From positions 1-25,266 of the forward strand of contig CALSCQ010002821.1 of NCBI GenBank assembly GCA_943704525.1: a stretch of DNA of 25,266 bases, in the 5' to 3' direction. Shown here one piece after another: positions 10,275 to 20,991 of this stretch. The notes below the pieces were generated by a model. That model had not been told where the DNA came from. It was given only the letters and a program-made list of their open reading frames with translations, and searched no databases. Within the stretch, counting starts at the first letter, position 1; every line of letters starts with the position of its first letter. This DNA comes from Pigoraptor vietnamica (lineage: Eukaryota > Opisthokonta > Filasterea). A program made the position numbers and the translations under genes.

Positions 10275-11766
10275 CTACTCGAACTTGATGCCCTGGGCAA
10301 GCGGCAGCTTGTCGCTGTAGTTGATCGTGCTGTTGGCGCGAACAAGGCAAAGGGAGAGTCAGTCGTATAGACCTTCTCGATAGTGGCGTTGTGTGTGGAT
10401 TTGACATCACGAGTAGGTTTTCGTACGCAACTCACCACGTCGCGCGGCGCATGTACTGCTTCCAAGAGTCGCTGCCGGACTCGCGGCCGCCGCCGGTCTC
10501 CTTCTCACCACCTGCACAAACGAGAGAAAATTAGAAAGCCATTATGGCTTGACAACAGTCTTCTGGCACTTTCGCTCTGAGTAGTCACACGGATTGTTAC
10601 GCAACGCACCGAAGGCACCGCCAATCTCAGCACCCGACGTGGGAATGTTGACGTTCACAATGCCGCAGTCAGAGCCGCGGGGCCTGCGCGGAGTTCCGCA
10701 CGCAAGGGTCAGCGCAAGGATCAGTGCGCAGTGATGAAGGCAATCTAAAATGGTTGGTGGTGTTCGTGTGTGTGTGTGTGTGTGTGGTTTGGGGGGGGGG
10801 GGGGGGGGGGATAGATGACACACCCAAGCCACTTGAACATGTTCGCGTGGTTCTTCGTGAAGAGGCTGCTGCTGAGACCCTGCGACACCTCGTTGTTCCA
10901 CTCGATCGCCTCGTCAATGGTCTGTGCATTCGTCCCAACTGTTAGATGTTGGAAATAACGTGCGTGCGCGCGCGCATGTGTGTGTGTGTGTGTGTGTGTG
11001 CGCGAAAATATAGGTGTATGTGTGTGTTTTTGTGCGCGGGTGTGAGTCGGGTGCCCGTGGGTGAGTGTGTACCTTGAACTTCATGACGTGCAGCACAGGG
11101 ACGAACGTCTCGTGCTGGACAACGGGCATGTCGTGGCGGACGAGCGCAATAGTTGGCTGCACAAAGTTGCCGGGGCCGTCGATTGTCTTGCCACCGACAA
11201 GGATGCTGCCACCCTGTTTCGCAAATCGAGTGTACGTTAGAACGCGAGAAGTGAAAAATGCGCTTTGTTGTGCGTGTACGCGCATACATACGTGCTGTGT
11301 GTGTGTGTGAGAGAGTTCGTGTGTGTGTGTGTGTGTATGTGTGCGTGTGTGTGTGTGTGTGTGTTGTGTGTGTGTGTGTGTGTGCGTGTGTATGATGCGT
11401 TCAAAGAGAGATAAATGGAAATATTCTTGTCACACGACAACATCAAGCCGGAATAACCACGGAACACTTCCAAACACACCTGCTCTTGCACCTCCTTCAC
11501 GCAGCGCTTGTAGTCCTCGACGGCGCGCTTCGTGTGGAGAGGGCCGCACAGCACACCATCTGCGCCACAGAGACGGAAGAGATGAACATGGTGCAAGCAC
11601 AGGGCAACGGAGAGATGAAACACACAGTGCTTGCATTGCAGCGCCGTGAACTGTAAATCGAGGCGCGAGTGGCAGTGCAAACCTTCGAGGGGATTGCCAA
11701 TCTTGACATGGCCGTACGCAGCCTTGAGGCGGTCGATGAAGGGCTGGTAGATCTTCTCGTGGAGCA

Positions 11767-11841
<75 letters not shown>

Positions 11842-13776
11842 ATGTGTGTGTGTGCGTGTGTGTGACGCAAAACAAACGTCAGAGAGATGTCGGATCAGCT
11901 GGAATCACAGTCGGTCGTCCATCGACTTCAGCACAAGCGTCACAGACACAGCAAAGAAGCCGAATGGCGTACGGCGCATTCCACCGCATGCACACGGTAC
12001 TATGGGGCATTACTACCACTCACCAGACGGCGCGTCGTCGTGCAACGCTGGCCCGCGGTGCCAACGGCCGCAAAGAGAACCGAACGAACAGCAAGCTCGA
12101 TATCGGCATCGTCCATCACTGGCATATCACCCCGTTAGCGTCGCGCATATCGACATGCGAGGCGTGGATCAAACGCGCACGCACACAGCAAAAAGTACGC
12201 CATGTATGATATTTGCATTTCGCACAGACAGGGCGCTCACCGATGAGTGCGTTGTTGCCGCCCAATTCCATAATGGACTTGCCAAAGCGGCGCTGCACGG
12301 CGACATTGACCTCGCGACCCACCTTCGCGTTGAGCGGGAATTGGAGTGGTGAGAGGGACGCACTTAAATTTCGGGAACAAACGGCGGACACAGTCGTCCC
12401 CACAGGACACAACAATCACACACACAACGCTCGCGCGCACAAACAGAGACAAAATTGAACACGCCCTACCTGTGTGCTGCCGGTGAAAGAGACGAGGTTC
12501 ACGTTCTTGTCCTCCGCCATGGCCTTGCCGATGTCAGCGCCGCCGCAGACGAGCGATGCAATGGCGCCCGGAAGCTTGTTGCGCTCGAGCACGCCCTGGA
12601 TGATGCGCGTCACAGCAATCGCCGAAAGAGCGACTGTCGGGGCCGGCTTCCTGCGGGGCACAGAGGCATAGTTGCGTAGGTTGGCGATGGCGTCATGAAT
12701 GTGCGTGTGTGTGCGTGCGTGCGCGCCTTCGTGCGTCTGTGTGTATGGTGTACGCATGTGCGTGTGCGTGCAACCACACGTTGTCGCCTTGCGGTCAGGG
12801 AGCGAGAGAGCCTCCGGAGACCCCGTGTACGCACCACAAGCATACGTTGCCGCCGACCATCGCGATGGCGTTGTTCCAGCCGTACACGGCGACGGGGAAG
12901 TTGAAGGCCGAAATGACGCCAACGACGCCCAGAGGGTGCCACTGCTCAAGGAGCGCGTGGCCGGGGCCTGTGGAAGGAACGGTTGCAAATAAGCAACATC
13001 GCAATCTCCGATGGCACTTACACACGCACTGCAAGCACCCACGCATGATCAGCCGAGATGTCACCAACGCCACATGGGACTACTCACGTTCGGAGGGGAT
13101 GACCTTTCCGCTCATCATGCGGCTGAGGCCCACGGCATAGTCGCAGATGTCGATGTACTCCTGCACTTCGCCCCAGCCCTCCGGAAGGATCTTGCCCATC
13201 TCGAGCGAGACGAGGCGGCCGAGCGGGTCCTTGTTCGCGCGAAGAGCGTCGCCAATCTGACGCACAATCTCGCCGCGCACGGGAGCGGGCACCTGCACAC
13301 ATGCACAGCAAGCCTTCAACACCTTGCGCAGCTCCAACACAAGCAGACCCAGCTCAGCGGTTCGACTATCGCACACTTGAACGAGACGAGATCGCCCAGA
13401 GTTCAACAGATCGAACGGACGCACGCACCAGAGCCCAGTCCTTCCACGCCTCCTTCGACGCCTTCACAGCGTCGTGGTACTCGGCCAGCGTGCCCTGCGT
13501 GGACAATTGTCAGCATCGACACTAAAGAGCCTCAGCACAGTGGGTCTGCGCACGTACTTCGCGGACGCGGGCGATGGGCTGGTTCGTTGCCGGGTTCACA
13601 GTCTCGTACACGCGACCCTTGCCGCCCCATTTGTCGACGAACACGCCGTCATTCTCCTCGCCCAGACCGAGATCCCTGAGGAACTTGAGGTCGTTGACGA
13701 GGAGGCGCGCCGACGACAGCGAGCGCGCGTGCGCAACCGCCGCGACGGACCGGCGGAACGAAATCGCCGCAAGCAT
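10275..13776 (-). CDS. ALDH7A1: ALDH7A1/antiquitin, alpha-aminoadipic semialdehyde dehydrogenase, predicted mitochondrial
   Basis: Fourteen exons in transcript order: 13558-13776, 13429-13494, 13088-13292, 12835-12967, 12470-12650, 12241-12322, 12024-12118, 11683-11767, 11480-11559, 11073-11213, 10824-10921, 10610-10683, 10436-10511, 10275-10329. All phases agree; 529 residues. The first about 25 residues ([20 protein letters not shown]) are Arg/Ala/Ser-rich and lack acidic residues, as in a mitochondrial presequence. Catalytic residues are present: Asn186 in [14 protein letters not shown], Glu287 in MELGGNN and nucleophile Cys321 in GTAGQRCTT. Long stretches match human antiquitin, including [26 protein letters not shown] and the C-terminus PLAQGIKF. 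Known role: NAD-dependent oxidation of alpha-aminoadipic semialdehyde in lysine breakdown, and of other aldehydes. Sense-strand CA repeats fill several introns; one runs directly into the acceptor of exon 8. It lies in tandem behind Hcp. Identity is very secure; mitochondrial location is inferred. Confidence 0.97.
10766..10810. repeat. TG repeat and G20 homopolymer in an ALDH7 intron
   Basis: A (TG)n run of about ten units followed by GTTT and then 20 consecutive G (10791-10810) on the plus strand. On the minus-strand transcript this is C20 followed by CA repeats, just after the donor of the intron 10684-10823. Confidence 0.96.
10969..11000. repeat. TG/CG microsatellite in an ALDH7 intron
   Basis: CG-rich then TG-rich dinucleotide run on the plus strand (CA on the transcript) within the intron 10922-11072. 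Confidence 0.9.
11296..11393. repeat. Interrupted TG microsatellite in an ALDH7 intron
   Basis: About 100 bases of interrupted TG repeat on the plus strand (CA on the transcript) in the middle of the intron 11214-11479. Confidence 0.93.
11769..11838. repeat. (TG)35 tract forming the 3' splice site of an ALDH7 intron
   Basis: Thirty-five uninterrupted TG units on the plus strand. On the minus-strand transcript this is a pure CA run whose last CA plus G is the CAG acceptor (11768-11770) of exon 8, which starts at 11767. There is no polypyrimidine tract between repeat and splice site. Confidence 0.97.
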
Positions 13777-14079: not shown

Positions 14080-14803
14080 TCACAACGCGTTCGCAAACAC
14101 CTTGAAGTCCTTCGCGGGCTCGTCAATCGCGCCAATACCGTACGCCTTCACGAGCACGTCAAGGACGGGCGGAGGGACAAACGCGGGAAGCGAAGGCCCG
14201 AGGCGGATGTTCTTGATGCCGAGGTGGAGCATGGTCAGCAACACTGCAACCGCCTTCTGCTCGAACCACGAGATGGCAAACGAGATCCTGCAGCCCGAGC
14301 GAGATGGAATCCGCATTAGCGCCAATGTCACTTGTGCAACACACGCATGGCATGTAAAGGATTGATACTCACGGAAGGTCGTTAAGGCCGACGTTGAAGG
14401 CTTTAGAGAGCGCAGCCGCAATCTGGATGGCCGAGTAGGCGTCGTTGCACTGCCCGACGTCGAGGAGGCGCGGGATGCCGCCAATGGTGCCAAAGTCGTT
14501 CTTGTTGAAGCGGTACTGCGCGTGGAAGTGGAAAGAGCGTGTGTGTAAGTTGCGTGTAGCACGACCATGTCACGTGCGTGTCGCTTAATGCCCACCTTGC
14601 CGCAGCCAAGCGTAAGGACGACGTGGTCCTTGGGAAGGCCCTTGGCCAGCTTCGTATAGTACGAGCGCTCCCCTTCGGCGCCGTCGCAACCGCCAATAAC
14701 AAAGAAGTGCTTGATCGCTCCGCTCTTCACGGCATCAATAACCTGCAAGTCGAGCGGTGGGTAAGCAGGCTGTTGTCTCATGCGTGTAGAAGGACCACAC
14801 ACG

Positions 14804-14843
<40 letters not shown>

Positions 14844-15843
14844 CAGACGCACAGACGCACACGTGTCGTTGGTCACGCACCTTGTCCGCGACGGAGAGGA
14901 CCGCGTTGCGCCCAAAACCAACGGTGATCTCCTGCGGCTTCTTCGTCTCTGCGAACCCGGGCATCTCGAGGGCCTGCTTCACGACCTCGCTGTAGTCGTT
15001 GCCATTGATGTGCTTCACCCCCGGCCAGCCAACGGGGCCTGAAGAGAGTGGGCGCAGAGTGACCGTCAGCCATGTGTTTGTGTGCGATATCGTAAGAACA
15101 CACGCACTCGCACACTCACCGCGCGTGTAGATGCGGTTCTTGTAGCTCTCGCGGGGCTCGACGAGGCAGTTGCTCGTCATCACAATAGGGCCCTGGGCGG
15201 CGGGGACAGTTTCGTTAGCGTCTTGTGTGTGCACACAGACAGTTGTGTGAAGTGGCTCTGCTTGCCTTGAATTGCGAAAACTCCATCTTTTGCAGCTGCC
15301 ATGCGCTGCCGTAGTTGCCGACGAGGTGCTTGTACCTTCAGGCAAGAACACGGCGCGTCAGAGATGGCGGATCGACCACAGGGTTTTCGCACCAACGTGC
15401 ATGAAGTCTTCACTCACTTCTTCAGCTTGGGGTACGAGTGGGCGGGAAGGAGCTCGCCGTGCGTGTACACGTTGATGCCCTTGCCCTCCGTCTGCTTGAG
15501 AATGTCCTCCAGGTCTTTGAGGTCGTGGCCGCTGACGAGGATCGCGTGGCCGGCGACGGGCTGGACGTTCACCTGCGTCGGGACGGGGTGTCCGTACGTG
15601 CCGGTGCCGCCCGCATCGAGGAGCTCCATCGCGCGGAGGTTGTTCTCGCCGACGCGCAGGGCCATCGCGAGCAGCTTGTCGACGACGAGGGCGTCCTTCG
15701 ACGTGAGGAAGGACAGAGCCTCGTTGAGGAAGGCGCCGACCTTGGGGTCGTACTGCCCGAGGACATCGGCGTGCTCCGCGTAGGCTGTACAGAGGAAACT
15801 TGGTGTGTGAGCATTGCATTTGGCACACACACTCACATATACA

Positions 15844-15891
<48 letters not shown>

Positions 15892-17054
15892 GATAGTCTC
15901 TGCTCACCCGACATGCCCTTGAGGCCATACGTAATAAGCTCCTGCAGGCCGACGACGACCTCGCCGAGCGCATCCTTGCGGTCGCGAATGCCCACCTGTG
16001 AAACGGACATGGTAAGTAAATGGAAGACGCGAACAGCAATGCAAAACGCTCTCTAACGTTCGCGCACACGCACCTGCTTGCCCGCTTGGATGAGGCCGTC
16101 CACGCTCACATCCTTGACAGCAAACGTCGCGGGGCCATCGAGGGACTCGGGCGCGACACCCTTCGCCTTGCACGCCGCCTCGTACTCCGCCTTCGCCTTG
16201 TCGCGGTAGGCGAGCGCCTCTGTGATGTAGCTGCGCACACAATGGAAGAATTGTGTCAGTCACTGGCGGAAGGAGGCCTCTAATATCACGTGATTTTTTT
16301 TTGGGGGGGGGGGGGGGGGGCACCCACCTCTTAAACCTGTCGCCGTCAAAGTTGACGTTCGTGAGAGTGGCGAAAGTCGAGCGCATGATGAAGACGTCCA
16401 AGTCCTTGTCGGACGGCGTCGAGCCGCGGAGCTCGCGCGTGCGGATCGAATACATTGACACGCCCTGCAGCACAAGTCCGGCGCTGTTAGCAGGCTCTGA
16501 GACGCGGGCGTGAAATGCGCTACGAAGCCGATTACGCGGCAACATTCACGCACCTTCAAGACGTGCATGAGGAGGTCCTGCATGGCGGCCACCTCGGGCG
16601 TCTTTCCGCAGACGCCGCCCTCTATCGTTGTGCAGCCAGAGCCGTTGCGCGTCTGCTCGCACTGGAAGCAGAACATGGCAGAGTTCTTGTCTGCGACGGA
16701 GAGGGAGGAAAGGGCCATGTGAATAAAAAGTCGGACCACGCAAAAGCATAGCGTGTGATCCACTCACCGGCCACGGCCGCTTGGGTCGCATATCCCGCGC
16801 GAACAACGCGCGCCATCGGCGTCACCGACGGCGCCGCAGCACGGGTCGCCGTGCGCACGACCGGCGCGATCGAAGACATGGGCCGCCGCAGAGCAGCGCG
16901 CCCGGCCGTCCGCGCAACCTGAAGTCCGTTCTGCGAAAGGGGCGCAGATGCGCATTCTTCAGCGCTCTATCACACCCACGCGTTCCGCACGGTTGTTGCA
17001 TGACGGTCCGCCAGGACAGCCGTAAACTTGACTGATTGAACTGACCTTAAGCAT
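14080..17054 (-). CDS. hcp: Hybrid-cluster protein (Hcp, hydroxylamine reductase/NO reductase type), predicted mitochondrial
   Basis: Thirteen exons in transcript order: 17046-17054, 16768-16930, 16554-16690, 16328-16464, 16074-16230, 15908-15995, 15418-15784, 15266-15335, 15120-15192, 14881-15038, 14596-14742, 14373-14515, 14080-14287. All phases agree; 618 residues. Residues 1-57 are basic and Ala/Arg-rich with almost no acidic residues, a mitochondrial-type presequence before the prokaryotic start MFCFQCEQT at 63. The N-terminal Fe-S cysteines are C65, C68, C77 and C85. All ligands of the hybrid 4Fe-2S-2O cluster are visible: H317, E341, C385, C472, C500, C525, E559 and K561, in motifs such as [27 protein letters not shown] and SWFEQKA. 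Bacterial Hcp reduces nitric oxide and, in vitro, hydroxylamine, taking electrons from the NADH enzyme Hcr. The first coding exon is 9 nt (MLK). The intron 15193-15265 has a GC donor. The gene is head-to-head with a diflavin reductase. Confidence 0.97.
14808..14840. repeat. CA microsatellite in an Hcp intron
   Basis: About 16 CA units on the plus strand (TG on the transcript) in the intron 14743-14880. Confidence 0.95.
15193..15265 (-). other. GC-AG intron in Hcp
   Basis: On the minus strand the exon ends TTCAAG and the intron starts GCAAGC. It ends CCGCCCAG before GGCCCTATT. Joining here gives EFSQFK then GPIVMTSNC with conserved Hcp sequence on both sides and phase 0 at both ends. The nearest downstream GT would shift the frame. 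GC donors are a known minor class of spliceosomal introns. Confidence 0.85.
15831..15889. repeat. CA microsatellite in an Hcp intron
   Basis: Interrupted CA repeat on the plus strand (TG on the transcript), starting about 18 bases inside the donor of the intron 15785-15907. Confidence 0.95.
16294..16320. repeat. T9 G18 homopolymer block in an Hcp intron
   Basis: Nine T then eighteen G on the plus strand. On the transcript this is C18 then A9, directly after the donor GTGGGTG of the intron 16231-16327. Confidence 0.97.
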
Positions 17055-17122
17055 TTTCGGGTCGTCGTTCAGTGACAAAGAGTGAGTCTGATGCCAGCGA
17101 ATCTTTCGGCGTCTTGCGCCCG

Positions 17123-17131
17123 TATTTATAC
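17123..17131 (-). promoter_or_regulatory. TATA box of Hcp
   Basis: TATAAATAC on the minus strand, about 70 bases upstream of the Hcp ATG at 17054. It is flanked by the hexamers CCCGTA and TACGGG, which form an inverted repeat with a four-base centre. Confidence 0.6.
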
Positions 17132-17380
17132 GGGAACGGGCGCTCGCATTGGGGCCCAATTGTGGTGGGTGTGTATGTGCGCTCACAGTCGGAGTTTCAG
17201 TGCGAGAAACCGATGTCCGGGTGATCGCAAGGTATGACTAAGTACTGGAGATTGGTGTCTGGACACTGTGTGAAAAGTGGCTGTGAGTGTGACACCGCAG
17301 CAACGCAGAGGCCAAAACCTCGCAGGGACGTGCCGGGTGAGAGAAAAAAGGAGAAAAAAAAACGCGCACTCGTTTGTGTT

Positions 17381-17388
17381 TATATATT
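17381..17388 (+). promoter_or_regulatory. TATA-like element of the diflavin reductase
   Basis: TATATATT in GC-rich surroundings, about 140 bases upstream of the ATG at 17529. The distance implies a leader of roughly 110 bases if it is used. Confidence 0.4.
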
Positions 17389-17528
17389 TTGTGTCTGCGT
17401 TGTTACGTTGACTGTGCGCACACCTTTGGGCTGACCTGGACGCCGGCCGCTCCCTCATCACTTGAGACTACTTCCGGCGGCGAACAAACTCCAAACTTGA
17501 GAACTCTGCTGAACTTCACGAGAAGAAA

Positions 17529-20500
17529 ATGATGCGCGCACAGAAGCTGCTCGGCCGCGCCGCAACTCTGGTGCGGACACAGCAGTCTGCCTCAAAATCC
17601 CCGTCCCTCGCTATCATTGCCCGCTGGCATCGACACAATTCAACTGCGGCTGTGGCCGCGGGACCGGTAAGTCTACACAGTAACCGTTTCGCGTAATATT
17701 CGGTCCATCTCTCACGTTTGAGTTTGAATCACCCCAGGCCACGCTTAAGATCCTCTTCGGCAGCCAGACGGGTACTGCGCAGGGGTTCGCGGAGGCGCTG
17801 GGCGACGAGGCGCGCAGGCGGTCGGTCCCGTGCGAGGTCGTGGACCTTGCCGAATACACGCCGGTGCGTGACGCTGCATCCTGGAATGACGAACGTGGCA
17901 ACCCATGTTGTAGTCGATTTGCTAACGAGCATGTGTCATGTATGCTGCCCGCAGAGCGACTTGCTGAAGGAGCGTTCGGTCGTGCTCGTCACCGCGTGTT
18001 ACGGCGAGGGTGAGCCGACGGACAGCGCCAAGGACTTTGTTCAGTGGGTGTCGACGACAGCGGACAAGATGCCCACCGATCTCAAGTACTCGGTGGGTGG
18101 GCGTGACGGCCGGTTCGGTTGAGGGCCCTTCACGCAAACTGGCTTGGTACTCATGCGCATCTCCTCTGGCAGGTGTTCGGTCTCGGAAGCAGCAAGTGCT
18201 TTGCGGAGCGTTACCAGGCTGTCGGTGGGTGGAGGTGCAGTTGGCACATTATACGGCGTGCGTGTGCGTGGCACAAAGTGCTGACGGCTGTGCGTTTGCA
18301 TATCTCGGTGCGCGTCGCGCAGGGCGCCTTCTTGACAGGCGCCTGGAGGAGCTTGGGGCGTCGCGGATAGCTTCCCGTGGAGAAGGCGACGACGCCGGAA
18401 AGTGAGTGGCGTTGTCATCGTTGCGACAGCGCATCCCGCGAGTGCGCTTTCTGGGCCGCCGGCTGTTGGGCAGTCTTTTGGATAAGATGTTTGGGGGATA
18501 CGCTATCTTACTGCATGCTTCGCGCAGCATCGAAACAGACTTTGAAAAGTGGCAGGCCGACTTCTGGCAAAAGTTCGAGAGCCAAGTAGCCAAAACCCCT
18601 TCTGCCGCCAAGACGTCAGCCACGGAGTCGAAAGATGGTCTGGCAGAGAGGTATGTCAGTGGCCGTGCGTGCACGCGCCGATGCCCGATGCGACGGTTTC
18701 GTCGTATGTTGTATGGACGGTCGCTTTGAGTTAGTATCCGGCCACATGTCTGACGCGCTACGTCCCCGCAGCCCTCGCAAGTACAACGTCACTGTGACCG
18801 GCGGAACGCCCATTTCACTGAGAACTTTCCCGGCCTCAAATATGTCGTGAGTGCGCGATGACATTCACTCTCGACGCACGCACACACGCATGCTCACAAG
18901 CCACCGAAGAGAAGAGACCTGTTAATTCTTCACTACACGCGCAGAGGCACGGACCCGTCGAACCCAACTGTCGTCCCCGTCACCGTCAATCGGGAACTGT
19001 GTGACCCTCGGTCCAAGCTGTCGTGTCGCCACATTGAGCTCAATACCACTGGAACGGCCATGAAGTGGGTTCACGTGTGTGTGTGTGTGTGTGTATGTGC
19101 GCGCGCGCGTGTGCGTGTGTGTGCGTGTATCAGTGTGTGTGTGCGTGTGCGTGTGCGTGTGCGTGTGCGTGTGCTTGTGTGTGTGTGTGTGTGTGCGTGC
19201 GTGCGTGTGTGTACGCGTGTGTGTGTGTGTGTATGTGTTGTATGTCTATCAAGTACACAGTCTCACACACCATCATAGGTGAAGTTCATGCGACACCGGC
19301 GCTTACCTTGCGTGTTCCTTGCGCAACTAGGTACGAGACCGGTGACCACGTCGCCTTCTACCCGGAGAACGATCCCGCCCTCGTACACGAGATTGGCGAA
19401 CTCACGTGCTCGGACCTCGACGCCAACTACACTTTTTCCCCCGTCGACGGTATGCATGCGGCAGCGACGAGTGTGTCGCGCTGCTCGTTTTGAGCTAACT
19501 TACGCCGGTTCCATGCGCAGCGGGCGTGAAAGCTCCCTTCCCGAACCCGTGCTCGGCTCGCAACGTGCTGTCCAGGTTCCTCGATATCTCCCGCGCCCCA
19601 CTGCCGCAGACGATCCGAGCGCTTGCGGCGCACGCGCAGCAGAGAAGGCCGGCGGAGGCGGCAGAACTTCTGGCCCTCGCAAAGGTTCGTGTTGAGCATT
19701 CTGTGAGAGGCGTGTGTTGCGTGCGTGTGTTGCGTGCGTGTGTGCGCGCGGAGGGGGGGGGGGAGGGTACAGGTACATGAAAAGTCTGTCTCTTCTCCAT
19801 CTGATGCGAATACGACCTCAGGACAAGTACGCAAGCGACGTGAAGGGCAACATGCTCAACGTTGTGGATCTCATGCGCCGCTTTCCGTCGGCGCGGCCGC
19901 CACTCGCCGCCCTCATCGAGGCACTCCCGCGCGTTCACCCGCGATACTACTCGATCTCCTCCTCGCCCCTTGTGAGTGTGTGGCCAGATAGCATCGATCG
20001 CACATGCCCTTGCCCCTCACCCACGTATCCAGCATCGGTCGCACATGCCTTTGCCCGTCACTCACCGTCCCTCTTGCAGGTGCACCCGGACAGCATGCAC
20101 GTGACGCCCAAGGTGGCTGAGTGGACCGGCGGCTTCCCCGGGATGACGTCACTGAGGCGTGGCGTGTGCTCTGGGTACATGGCGACGCTGAAGCCCGGGG
20201 ACGAGGCGTGCGTGTTCATGCGCACGTCCAAGTTTCACTTGCCGAAGGACGACTCGACGCCGATCATTATGGTAAAGCGTGTTGAGTCCTTGTGGCTTCG
20301 TACATAAACAGGTGGTTGACACCCATTCGTGCTGCAGGTCGGTGCTGGCGCTGGTCTAGCTCCCTTCCGCGCATTCCTTGAGGAGCGTACTTACCGTGCC
20401 AAGAAAGGTGTGTTGCGTGCGTTCACCGCTTTGCACGGCTGGCACTCACTCACCTTAATGCTTCTCCCGCAGACGGCCGCTTTGGACATTCGCGACTCTA

Positions 20501-20991
20501 CTTCGGCACGCGCACGCCGCACTCCCGAATGTACGCGGACGAGATCGCCGATGCAGTCAACAGCGGCGCTCTCACCCAGTATCACGAGGCGTTTTCACAC
20601 GTGCCGGTAGGTACAGACGAGATCGATGCACGAGCAGCACACACACAGTTCGATACTTACAAACGCATTGTTCCCACACACAGAATGGCGCTCTCCTCGT
20701 CCATGAAAAGTTCATTGCCGATGCCGACGACATTTGGGGGCTGCTCAACAAGGGCGCTGTGATCTATGTGTGCGGGTGAGTCTGCGTTGTCGCGAGTCGA
20801 TGGGATTTGCAAAAAATTTGTCACTGAAATCGGGGGTTTTCAGGGGTGCGAATGGCTTTGGGACGGCCATGACAGCCGCATTTCAGCGCCTTTTCGTCAC
20901 GCACGGCGGAGCAGCGACGGAGACGGACGCCGTTGCCCGAGTTGCCGACGCAATGTCGCGCGGACGGTGGTTGGAAGACCTGGCAGACTGA
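17529..20991 (+). CDS. P450-reductase-like diflavin reductase with mitochondrial presequence
   Basis: Sixteen exons: 17529-17666, 17738-17863, 17955-18092, 18173-18224, 18323-18401, 18528-18650, 18772-18846, 18945-19064, 19331-19449, 19521-19684, 19822-19971, 20080-20271, 20338-20407, 20473-20606, 20684-20775, 20844-20991. All phases agree; 639 residues. Residues 1-46 are basic, with no acidic residue and no membrane helix: a mitochondrial-type presequence in place of the ER anchor of cytochrome P450 reductase (CPR). The FMN domain (47-220) has GSQTGTA and [10 protein letters not shown]. The FAD domain (about 230-490) has [11 protein letters not shown] and RYYSISSSP. The NAD(P)H domain (492-639) has [10 protein letters not shown] and YVCG. 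Rat CPR hydride-transfer residues Ser457, Cys630 and Asp675 are kept (S422, C590, D636). NADPH-phosphate ligands Arg597 and Lys602 are H558 and A563, and FAD-stacking Trp677 is A638. Electrons run NAD(P)H to FAD to FMN to an acceptor; I infer Hcp as acceptor from the divergent pairing. Alternative: partner of a mitochondrial P450. Confidence 0.94.
19077..19240 (+). repeat. TG/CG-rich microsatellite in a diflavin reductase intron
   Basis: About 160 bases of interrupted TG, GTGC and GTGTAT repeats that begin within about 12 bases of the donor GTGGGT in the intron 19065-19330. The Cys/Val-rich open frames here are repeat artefacts. Confidence 0.93.
19991..20063 (+). repeat. Two diverged 32-bp direct repeats in a diflavin reductase intron
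   Basis: Copies at 19991-20022 and 20032-20063, each starting GCATCG-TCGCACATGCC and continuing TTGCCC-TCAC, differ at a few bases. They lie in the intron 19972-20079 and the second copy ends just before the acceptor region. Confidence 0.85.

Follow-up and report, generated by a model that had tools for sequence, protein, structure and literature searches.

Organization of the Hcp-reductase locus

The window analysed here, a stretch of 25,266 nucleotides that forms contig C1172 (CALSCQ010002821.1) of Pigoraptor vietnamica, contains two divergent genes, which encode a hybrid cluster protein (Hcp) and a diflavin reductase of the NADPH-cytochrome P450 reductase (CPR) type. The pair is considered below as a candidate mitochondrial nitric oxide (NO) reductase with its own electron supplier. 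The genome analysed comprises 32.5 Mb in 1395 contigs. Both gene models are intact by splice sites and reading frames, with no stop inside the 13 rebuilt exons of the Hcp gene or the 16 of the reductase gene, and their introns are of the GT-AG type, with the sole exception of one GC-AG intron in Hcp (Table 1). The Hcp gene starts at 17054 on the minus strand and the reductase gene at 17529 on the plus strand, which leaves 474 bp between the start codons. A first-pass annotation, made from the DNA letters alone, had described the two genes as head to head at this distance, and the exon-by-exon rebuild bears it out; the gene identities that it gave are borne out by the Pfam, NCBIfam and solved-structure matches.

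The Hcp matches the Pfam Prismane family with 544 bits over residues 63–611 (cut-off 27) and the NCBIfam hydroxylamine reductase model with 774 bits (curated cut-off 367). One Hcp gene was found: across the 32.5 Mb of the genome, its exons account for all five Prismane matches. The closest prokaryotic identities are 61% over 522 columns (L049) and 60% over 550 (L051). All 11 cluster ligands are kept: the four cysteines of the N-terminal cluster and the seven ligands of the hybrid cluster (one His, two Glu and four Cys), the latter read off the alignment from the positions that we take to be the ligands in Desulfovibrio Hcp.

The reductase presents the Pfam domains Flavodoxin_1, FAD_binding_1 and NAD_binding_1 in the order of CPR; the Pfam search gave no Fer2 match in it, so that it is without the C-terminal 2Fe-2S domain of the Hcr type. 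Its closest solved relative is the NADPH-cytochrome P450 reductase 6njr (341 bits, residues 49–636), and it shares 34% identity over 616 columns with chain 1j9z, which we take to be rat CPR. The equivalents of CPR Ser457, Cys630 and Asp675, presumably the catalytic residues, are retained together with the flavin motifs. No relatives of the reductase were found in viral contigs.

Both proteins begin with a basic leader. In the alignment, M63 of the window Hcp is matched by the first residue of prokaryotic Hcps, so that the window protein carries some 57–62 extra residues; the first exon of its gene has only 9 bases (MLK), and a second in-frame ATG (M21, exon 2) would leave a basic leader too. 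The first 45 residues include eight Lys/Arg in Hcp and seven in the reductase, with no Asp or Glu in either. A transmembrane-like segment was found in neither leader, the maximal Kyte-Doolittle values being 0.65 for Hcp and 0.83 for the reductase (KD19, first 70 residues) versus 2.45 for the N-terminus of the paralogue on C1054. Composition, alignment at M63 and hydropathy agree with the first-pass description of two basic leaders that replace the prokaryotic start and the endoplasmic reticulum (ER) anchor, respectively. From the composition of the leaders, both proteins are likely to be imported into mitochondria.

The two TATA-like sites in the region between the start codons are 250 bp apart, and each of them reads TATA-like on the opposite strand too. 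By these consensus matches, the two sites may represent two core promoters.

Table 1. Coordinates of the features of the Hcp-reductase locus (positions in the window).
Feature	Position	Strand	Remarks
Hcp gene	14080..17054	minus	13 exons, 618 aa
Hcp exons 1-7	17046-17054, 16768-16930, 16554-16690, 16328-16464, 16074-16230, 15908-15995, 15418-15784	minus	
Hcp exons 8-13	15266-15335, 15120-15192, 14881-15038, 14596-14742, 14373-14515, 14080-14287	minus	
GC-AG intron of Hcp (AAG/GCAAGC)	15265-15266	minus	after exon 8
Hcp basic leader, ~57 residues	16768..17054	minus	exons 1-2; predicted mitochondrial targeting
N-terminal cluster motif C-x2-C-x8-C-x7-C (Cys65, 68, 77, 85)	16554..16690	minus	exon 3; class I-type
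Hybrid-cluster ligands His317, Glu341, Cys385, Cys472, Cys500, Cys525, Glu559	14080..15784	minus	exons 7-13
Region between start codons	17055..17528	none	474 bp
TATA-like TATAAATA	17130-17123	minus	~70 bp ahead of Hcp ATG; consensus match only
TATA-like TATATATTTT	17381-17390	plus	~140 bp ahead of reductase ATG; consensus match only
CPR-type diflavin reductase gene	17529..20991	plus	16 exons, 639 aa
Reductase exons 1-8	17529-17666, 17738-17863, 17955-18092, 18173-18224, 18323-18401, 18528-18650, 18772-18846, 18945-19064	plus	
Reductase exons 9-16	19331-19449, 19521-19684, 19822-19971, 20080-20271, 20338-20407, 20473-20606, 20684-20775, 20844-20991	plus	
Reductase basic leader, 46 residues, at the place of the ER anchor	17529..17666	plus	exon 1; predicted mitochondrial targeting
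FMN (flavodoxin) domain, residues 51-186	17738..18650	plus	exons 2-6; GSQTGTA loop; Tyr104 = CPR Tyr140
Altered NADPH 2'-phosphate site	20595..20698	plus	spans exon 14/15 junction
Ser557	20595-20597	plus	retained
His558	20598-20600	plus	Arg597-equivalent
Ala563	20690-20692	plus	Lys602-equivalent
Leu565	20696-20698	plus	Tyr604-equivalent
C-terminus, Asp636 and Ala638	20983..20991	plus	Asp636 = Asp675-equivalent, retained; Ala638 = Trp677-equivalent

Altered NADPH site of the reductase

In CPR, the residues S596, R597, K602 and R634 are named as those of the 2'-phosphate site (PMC3105092); Tyr604 was added as a site residue from the engineered set of P450 BM3. At the positions of CPR R597, K602 and Y604 the window reductase presents His, Ala and Leu, and Ala takes the place of W677, a combination found in this protein alone when compared with rat CPR, E. 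coli CysJ and five paralogues from its own genome. The protein ends in RWLEDLAD, where rat CPR, CysJ and the five paralogues have Trp or Tyr. All five own-genome paralogues with a visible C-terminus retain the Arg, a Lys or Arg, the Tyr and the C-terminal Trp or Tyr. In addition, the glycine-rich loop of the window reductase is GAGAG, while G-x-G-T-G or S-T-G is present or allowed in seven of the eight aligned rows.

The prokaryotic control included 45 diflavin loci among the matches listed, which correspond to 41 distinct genes, since four pairs overlap. Sixteen loci come from 11 of 50 Hcp-bearing genomes, and 29 more are among the matches listed in a 200-genome sample from one phylum (35 matching). 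All 45 keep the Arg, the Lys/Arg, the Tyr and the C-terminal aromatic residue. R634, where the window protein has Asn, was dropped as a marker of the site because it varies among these controls.

Changes from NADP towards NAD have been described for CPR W676A/W677A and for BM3 W1046A, R966D/W1046S and R966N/K972H/Y974F/W1046D (PMC5817062). As the residues lost in the window protein are the positions that engineers changed to obtain NADH enzymes, the use of NADH by the reductase is likely, and the simplest reading is a functional enzyme with NADH as its predicted cofactor. The loss of the 2'-phosphate site together with the C-terminal aromatic residue goes beyond what the first-pass annotation had noticed, and it fits an NADH-driven reductase like Hcr.

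Hcp class and prokaryotic hcp loci

Class I and class II Hcps are set apart by an insertion in the N-terminal cysteine motif, class II being a subgroup inside class I (PMC10210160). According to the same paper, class II has Hcr and the electron donor of class I is described as unknown; section 4.3 adds that the potential of class I Hcp would permit reduction by NAD(P)H via a partner protein. The window Hcp has eight residues between the second and third cysteines, without the four-residue insertion of class II, and is thus class I-type by cysteine spacing, although the assignment is not clean.

Of 562 confirmed prokaryotic relatives, the best 80 were compared (by title, 79 are from bacteria and one is from an archaeon); 57 of these 80 have the spacing 2-8-5 and 14 the longer class II loop of 11 or 12 residues. 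Three observations weigh against a plain class I protein. The seven residues between the third and fourth cysteines are unusual, and their combination with x8 occurs in none of the 80 loci. The closest solved structure, 7de4, identified as the class II Hcp of E. coli in PMC10210160, scores 594 bits versus 549 for Desulfovibrio 1gn9. Of the two halves of the Hcp tree, the window protein is in the starred one, to which the class II group belongs, and 1gn9 is in the other. The protein is nevertheless not a member of the starred group formed by the 14 class II rows. The branches of E. coli Hcp and 1gn9 are long, the placement of the window protein is unsettled, and this tree does not resolve the origin of the gene. 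Because class II is nested within class I (PMC10210160), the structure match and the tree position are compatible with class I.

The flanks of the 80 hcp loci were searched in translated frames of at least 80 aa, at E values up to 1e-4, with the window reductase, E. coli CysJ and E. coli Hcr as queries. The Hcr query gave 13 matches, 12 of them directly downstream of hcp and all 12 at class II loci (12/14). The two class II loci without an adjacent Hcr-like match are L078, where 0.8 kb is available downstream, and L123; the 13th match, at L118, is weak and about 3 kb off. No Hcr-like gene was found next to hcp at the 66 non-class II loci, of which 54 have at least 1.3 kb downstream and 44 at least 2 kb on both sides. 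The first-pass statement that bacterial Hcp is fed by Hcr therefore needs narrowing to class II, and the window Hcp is class I-type.

With the window reductase and CysJ as queries, no diflavin reductase was found in the available flanks of the 80 closest hcp loci, and a search of 50 Hcp-bearing genomes, for which 50 of the 80 loci were given, found one anywhere in just 11. Bacteria thus give no model for the pairing of Hcp with a diflavin reductase, which prokaryotic class I Hcp does not need; both counts weigh against such a reductase as the donor of the window Hcp.

Redox genes elsewhere in the genome

The genome was searched exon by exon, and genes split into very short exons could escape. 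At least seven diflavin genes were found, on C104, C1054, C1250, C490, C1156, C430 and in the window. C104 carries a separate CPR that is nearer to rat CPR (41 to 69% identical by segment); its contig ends before the NADPH-site region, and the C-terminal end is missing with it, hence this paralogue is outside the comparison made above. The paralogue on C1054 is CPR-like and membrane-anchored, that on C430 is CPR-like, and that on C1156 is closest to methionine synthase reductase. On C1250 (L042), P450 matches lie just upstream of the diflavin sequence on the same strand, which probably represents a P450-reductase fusion in a protist. On C490 (L039), an 873-aa frame joins a pyruvate-oxidoreductase-like N-terminal part to a C-terminal half of the CPR type; it is probably a sulfite reductase alpha of the MET10 type, as in fungi. 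A flavodoxin-domain gene on C1060 (L045) has an N-terminal hydrophobic segment and, by our reading, a TYW1-like stretch beyond it.

An Hcr-type reductase with a 2Fe-2S domain was not found with the E. coli Hcr query in the exon-by-exon search. The sole significant match, on C818 (L152, 16500–18596), is a pyridoxamine-oxidase-like plus FNR frame with a weak similarity to Hcr, no Fer2 and an acidic N-terminus, and it was rejected as a competitor. Four Fer2 matches occur in the genome; those on C1236, C1095 and C330 look xanthine-dehydrogenase-type, and that on C274 (37 bits) is unclassified.

C1236 also contains, at 11550–12404 (minus), a match to the copper nitrite reductase model TIGR02376 with an E value of 1.5e-84 and 287.5 bits, just below the cut-off of 296.3, which covers model positions 11–311 of 326 in one open frame. 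The same model matches seven of 14 control genomes, one of them above the cut-off. The gene is a probable NirK and would be an NO source in the same genome.

P450 genes are represented by 18 matched stretches on eight contigs, and the one on C1129 is CYP4-like by its best solved matches (19 matches, E up to 1e-40). A [FeFe]-hydrogenase-like stretch lies at C598:16616–17458 (plus) in a 2092-aa frame, with 168 bits to TIGR02512 (cut-off 406), and could belong to a hydrogenase fusion or to a Nar1-like protein; this model matches 13 of 14 control genomes, one above the cut-off.

Around the pair itself, the adjoining gene on the Hcp side encodes an aldehyde dehydrogenase (Pfam Aldedh; 10.9–13.8 kb of the window, minus strand), antiquitin-like by our reading and with a mitochondrial-like leader. 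Long (CA)n/(GT)n tracts, mostly intronic, occur at 14800–14850, 15825–15890, 19070–19235 and 11400–11850, and a poly-G run is located at about 16303–16320 within Hcp intron 4.

A candidate electron supplier for Hcp

We propose that the Hcp and the diflavin reductase may form a mitochondrial NO (or hydroxylamine) reductase with its own electron supplier, a reading to which we give roughly even odds (about 0.5). In this system, NADH would deliver two electrons to the FAD of the reductase, from which they would pass one by one to the FMN; the FMN would reduce the N-terminal Fe-S cluster of Hcp and, through it, the hybrid cluster, where two NO would be converted to N2O. The transfer from the FMN domain to Hcp is suggested by adjacency, predicted compartment and cofactor logic, and its chances appear balanced. 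NO is the presumed substrate by analogy with bacterial Hcp and from the probable nitrite reductase in the genome, and a complete module from nitrite through NO to N2O is a more tentative proposal. Equally tentative is the history that would go with it, in which a CPR paralogue was relocated to mitochondria, shed both the NADPH site and the C-terminal aromatic residue and was turned into a dedicated NADH:Hcp reductase; it would be the first identified donor of a class I-type Hcp, within a route from nitrite (by NirK) to NO and N2O. The interpretation of the first-pass annotation, in which a P450-reductase-type enzyme was recruited as the Hcp reductase of the mitochondrion, is partly supported as a whole.

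Several observations count for this proposal. The genes are head to head and the genome has yielded a single Hcp gene. Both leaders are basic, and the reductase is anchorless while its paralogue on C1054 is anchored. His, Ala and Leu plus Ala occupy the specificity positions with the catalytic residues kept, no Hcr-like 2Fe-2S enzyme was found by the search described, and a probable NirK is present. In the literature, class I Hcp is without a known donor and its potential would permit NAD(P)H via a partner (PMC10210160). A table footnote reports a fusion of the HCP gene with a 'sulfite reductase' gene in Cyanophora paradoxa (PMC8003979), which would be a second, independent eukaryotic link between Hcp and a diflavin protein if a CysJ-like flavoprotein is meant; the footnote may refer instead to the siroheme subunit, which tells against the proposal. 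Other points on that side are the two TATA-like sites, which would suit two promoters, and the mitochondrial-like leader of the aldehyde dehydrogenase. As this third gene in the row has such a leader too, a common compartment is weak evidence for a module.

The two genes could also be neighbours by chance, with Hcp fed from elsewhere and the reductase, as an NADH-dependent diflavin enzyme of the mitochondrion, serving another acceptor (a P450 or ferredoxin) or acting as a general diaphorase; this is possible, though we doubt it. The spacing of 474 bp is ordinary here, since the pair is flanked by gaps of some hundreds of bases: the upstream aldehyde dehydrogenase starts about 300 bp from Hcp, and the next presumed start lies about 900 bp beyond the reductase. 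P450 genes are also at hand in the genome. The mitosomal diflavin reductase GiOR-1 of Giardia has no reported Hcp link in the available text of PMC3044749, which also weighs against our proposal in that this enzyme prefers NADPH about 30-fold, is inactive with ferredoxin and has a partner described as unknown. On the other hand, the chance that one of seven diflavin genes adjoins Hcp is about 0.1–0.2%, or about 1% for any redox partner, on an assumed total of some 10,000 genes, a rough estimate from the gene density in the window; these odds are post hoc, and they favour a link between Hcp and the reductase. If Hcp were instead reduced by a mitochondrial ferredoxin acting as a general donor, which we consider rather unlikely, this would agree with the ferredoxin proposed for Chlamydomonas HCP4 (PMC8003979) and with the absence of syntenic partners of class I genes, which has been taken to point to a general donor (PMC10210160). 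The unclassified Fer2 match on C274 could be such a ferredoxin; the other three of the four matches look xanthine-dehydrogenase-type, though introns could conceal ferredoxins from the search, and nothing was found that ties a ferredoxin to the Hcp-reductase locus.

Drift could also account for the changed residues, in an enzyme that has kept its use of NADPH or is on the way to losing its function, but this appears improbable. The data come from a single genome, too few to gauge selection, and the same tryptophan change in the CPR of Anopheles minimus raised the affinity for NADPH and not for NADH (PMC3565348), a result that also speaks against predicted NADH use. However, the 16 exons are intact, and decay is unlikely because the catalytic Ser/Cys/Asp equivalents and the flavin motifs are kept. 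The four specificity positions were lost together, which is seen in none of the 41 prokaryotic genes among the matches listed, and a small splice-site shift would not bring the motif back, as the exon 14/15 junction separates the codon of the His from the downstream codons of the Ala and Leu.

Comparison with known systems

In a literature search limited in collection and wording, no paper joining the hybrid cluster protein with a diflavin reductase was found, and ferredoxin was the sole donor found proposed for a eukaryotic Hcp; a Spironucleus paper, in the part available, lists HCP and treats CPR separately. The locus offers a concrete candidate donor for a class I-type Hcp, a class described as lacking a known one (PMC10210160). 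Engineering of CPR and P450 BM3 has given rules for the cofactor switch, and a natural CPR-type reductase that has seemingly evolved to use NADH would put them to the test. Were the full route true, it would be an additional source of N2O in a eukaryote, and if the reductase were a dedicated NADH:Hcp reductase, the pairing of Hcp with a diflavin enzyme would be a eukaryotic invention in place of Hcr.

Giardia too encodes an Hcp and has a diflavin reductase, GiOR-1, in an organelle related to mitochondria; GiOR-1 differs, however, in its Tah18-resembling architecture and in its preference for NADPH over NADH, and the excerpt of PMC3044749 reports no connection with Hcp. Chlamydomonas, with HCP1–4 (HCP2 being mitochondrial) and a mitochondrial NIRK (PMC7412212), presents an organellar eukaryotic Hcp and a nitrite reductase in one organism, as is probable here, but ferredoxin is the proposed electron source of HCP4 (PMC8003979) and CYP55 is present there too. 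With CPR, the window reductase shares the domain order, the catalytic Ser, Cys and Asp and 34% identity to the rat enzyme, and it differs from CPR in having a basic leader instead of the ER anchor and in lacking the 2'-phosphate site and the C-terminal aromatic residue. The Hcp-Hcr system of E. coli is unlike the window pair in that Hcr is an FNR plus 2Fe-2S protein and the window reductase a CPR-type FMN/FAD protein, in that the window Hcp is without the class II insertion, and in that the window genes are divergent, eukaryotic and not in an operon. In both cases, however, Hcp adjoins the gene of a candidate NAD(P)H-driven reductase, NADH is the predicted cofactor of the window enzyme, and the solved structure closest to the Hcp of the window is that of E. 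coli Hcp.

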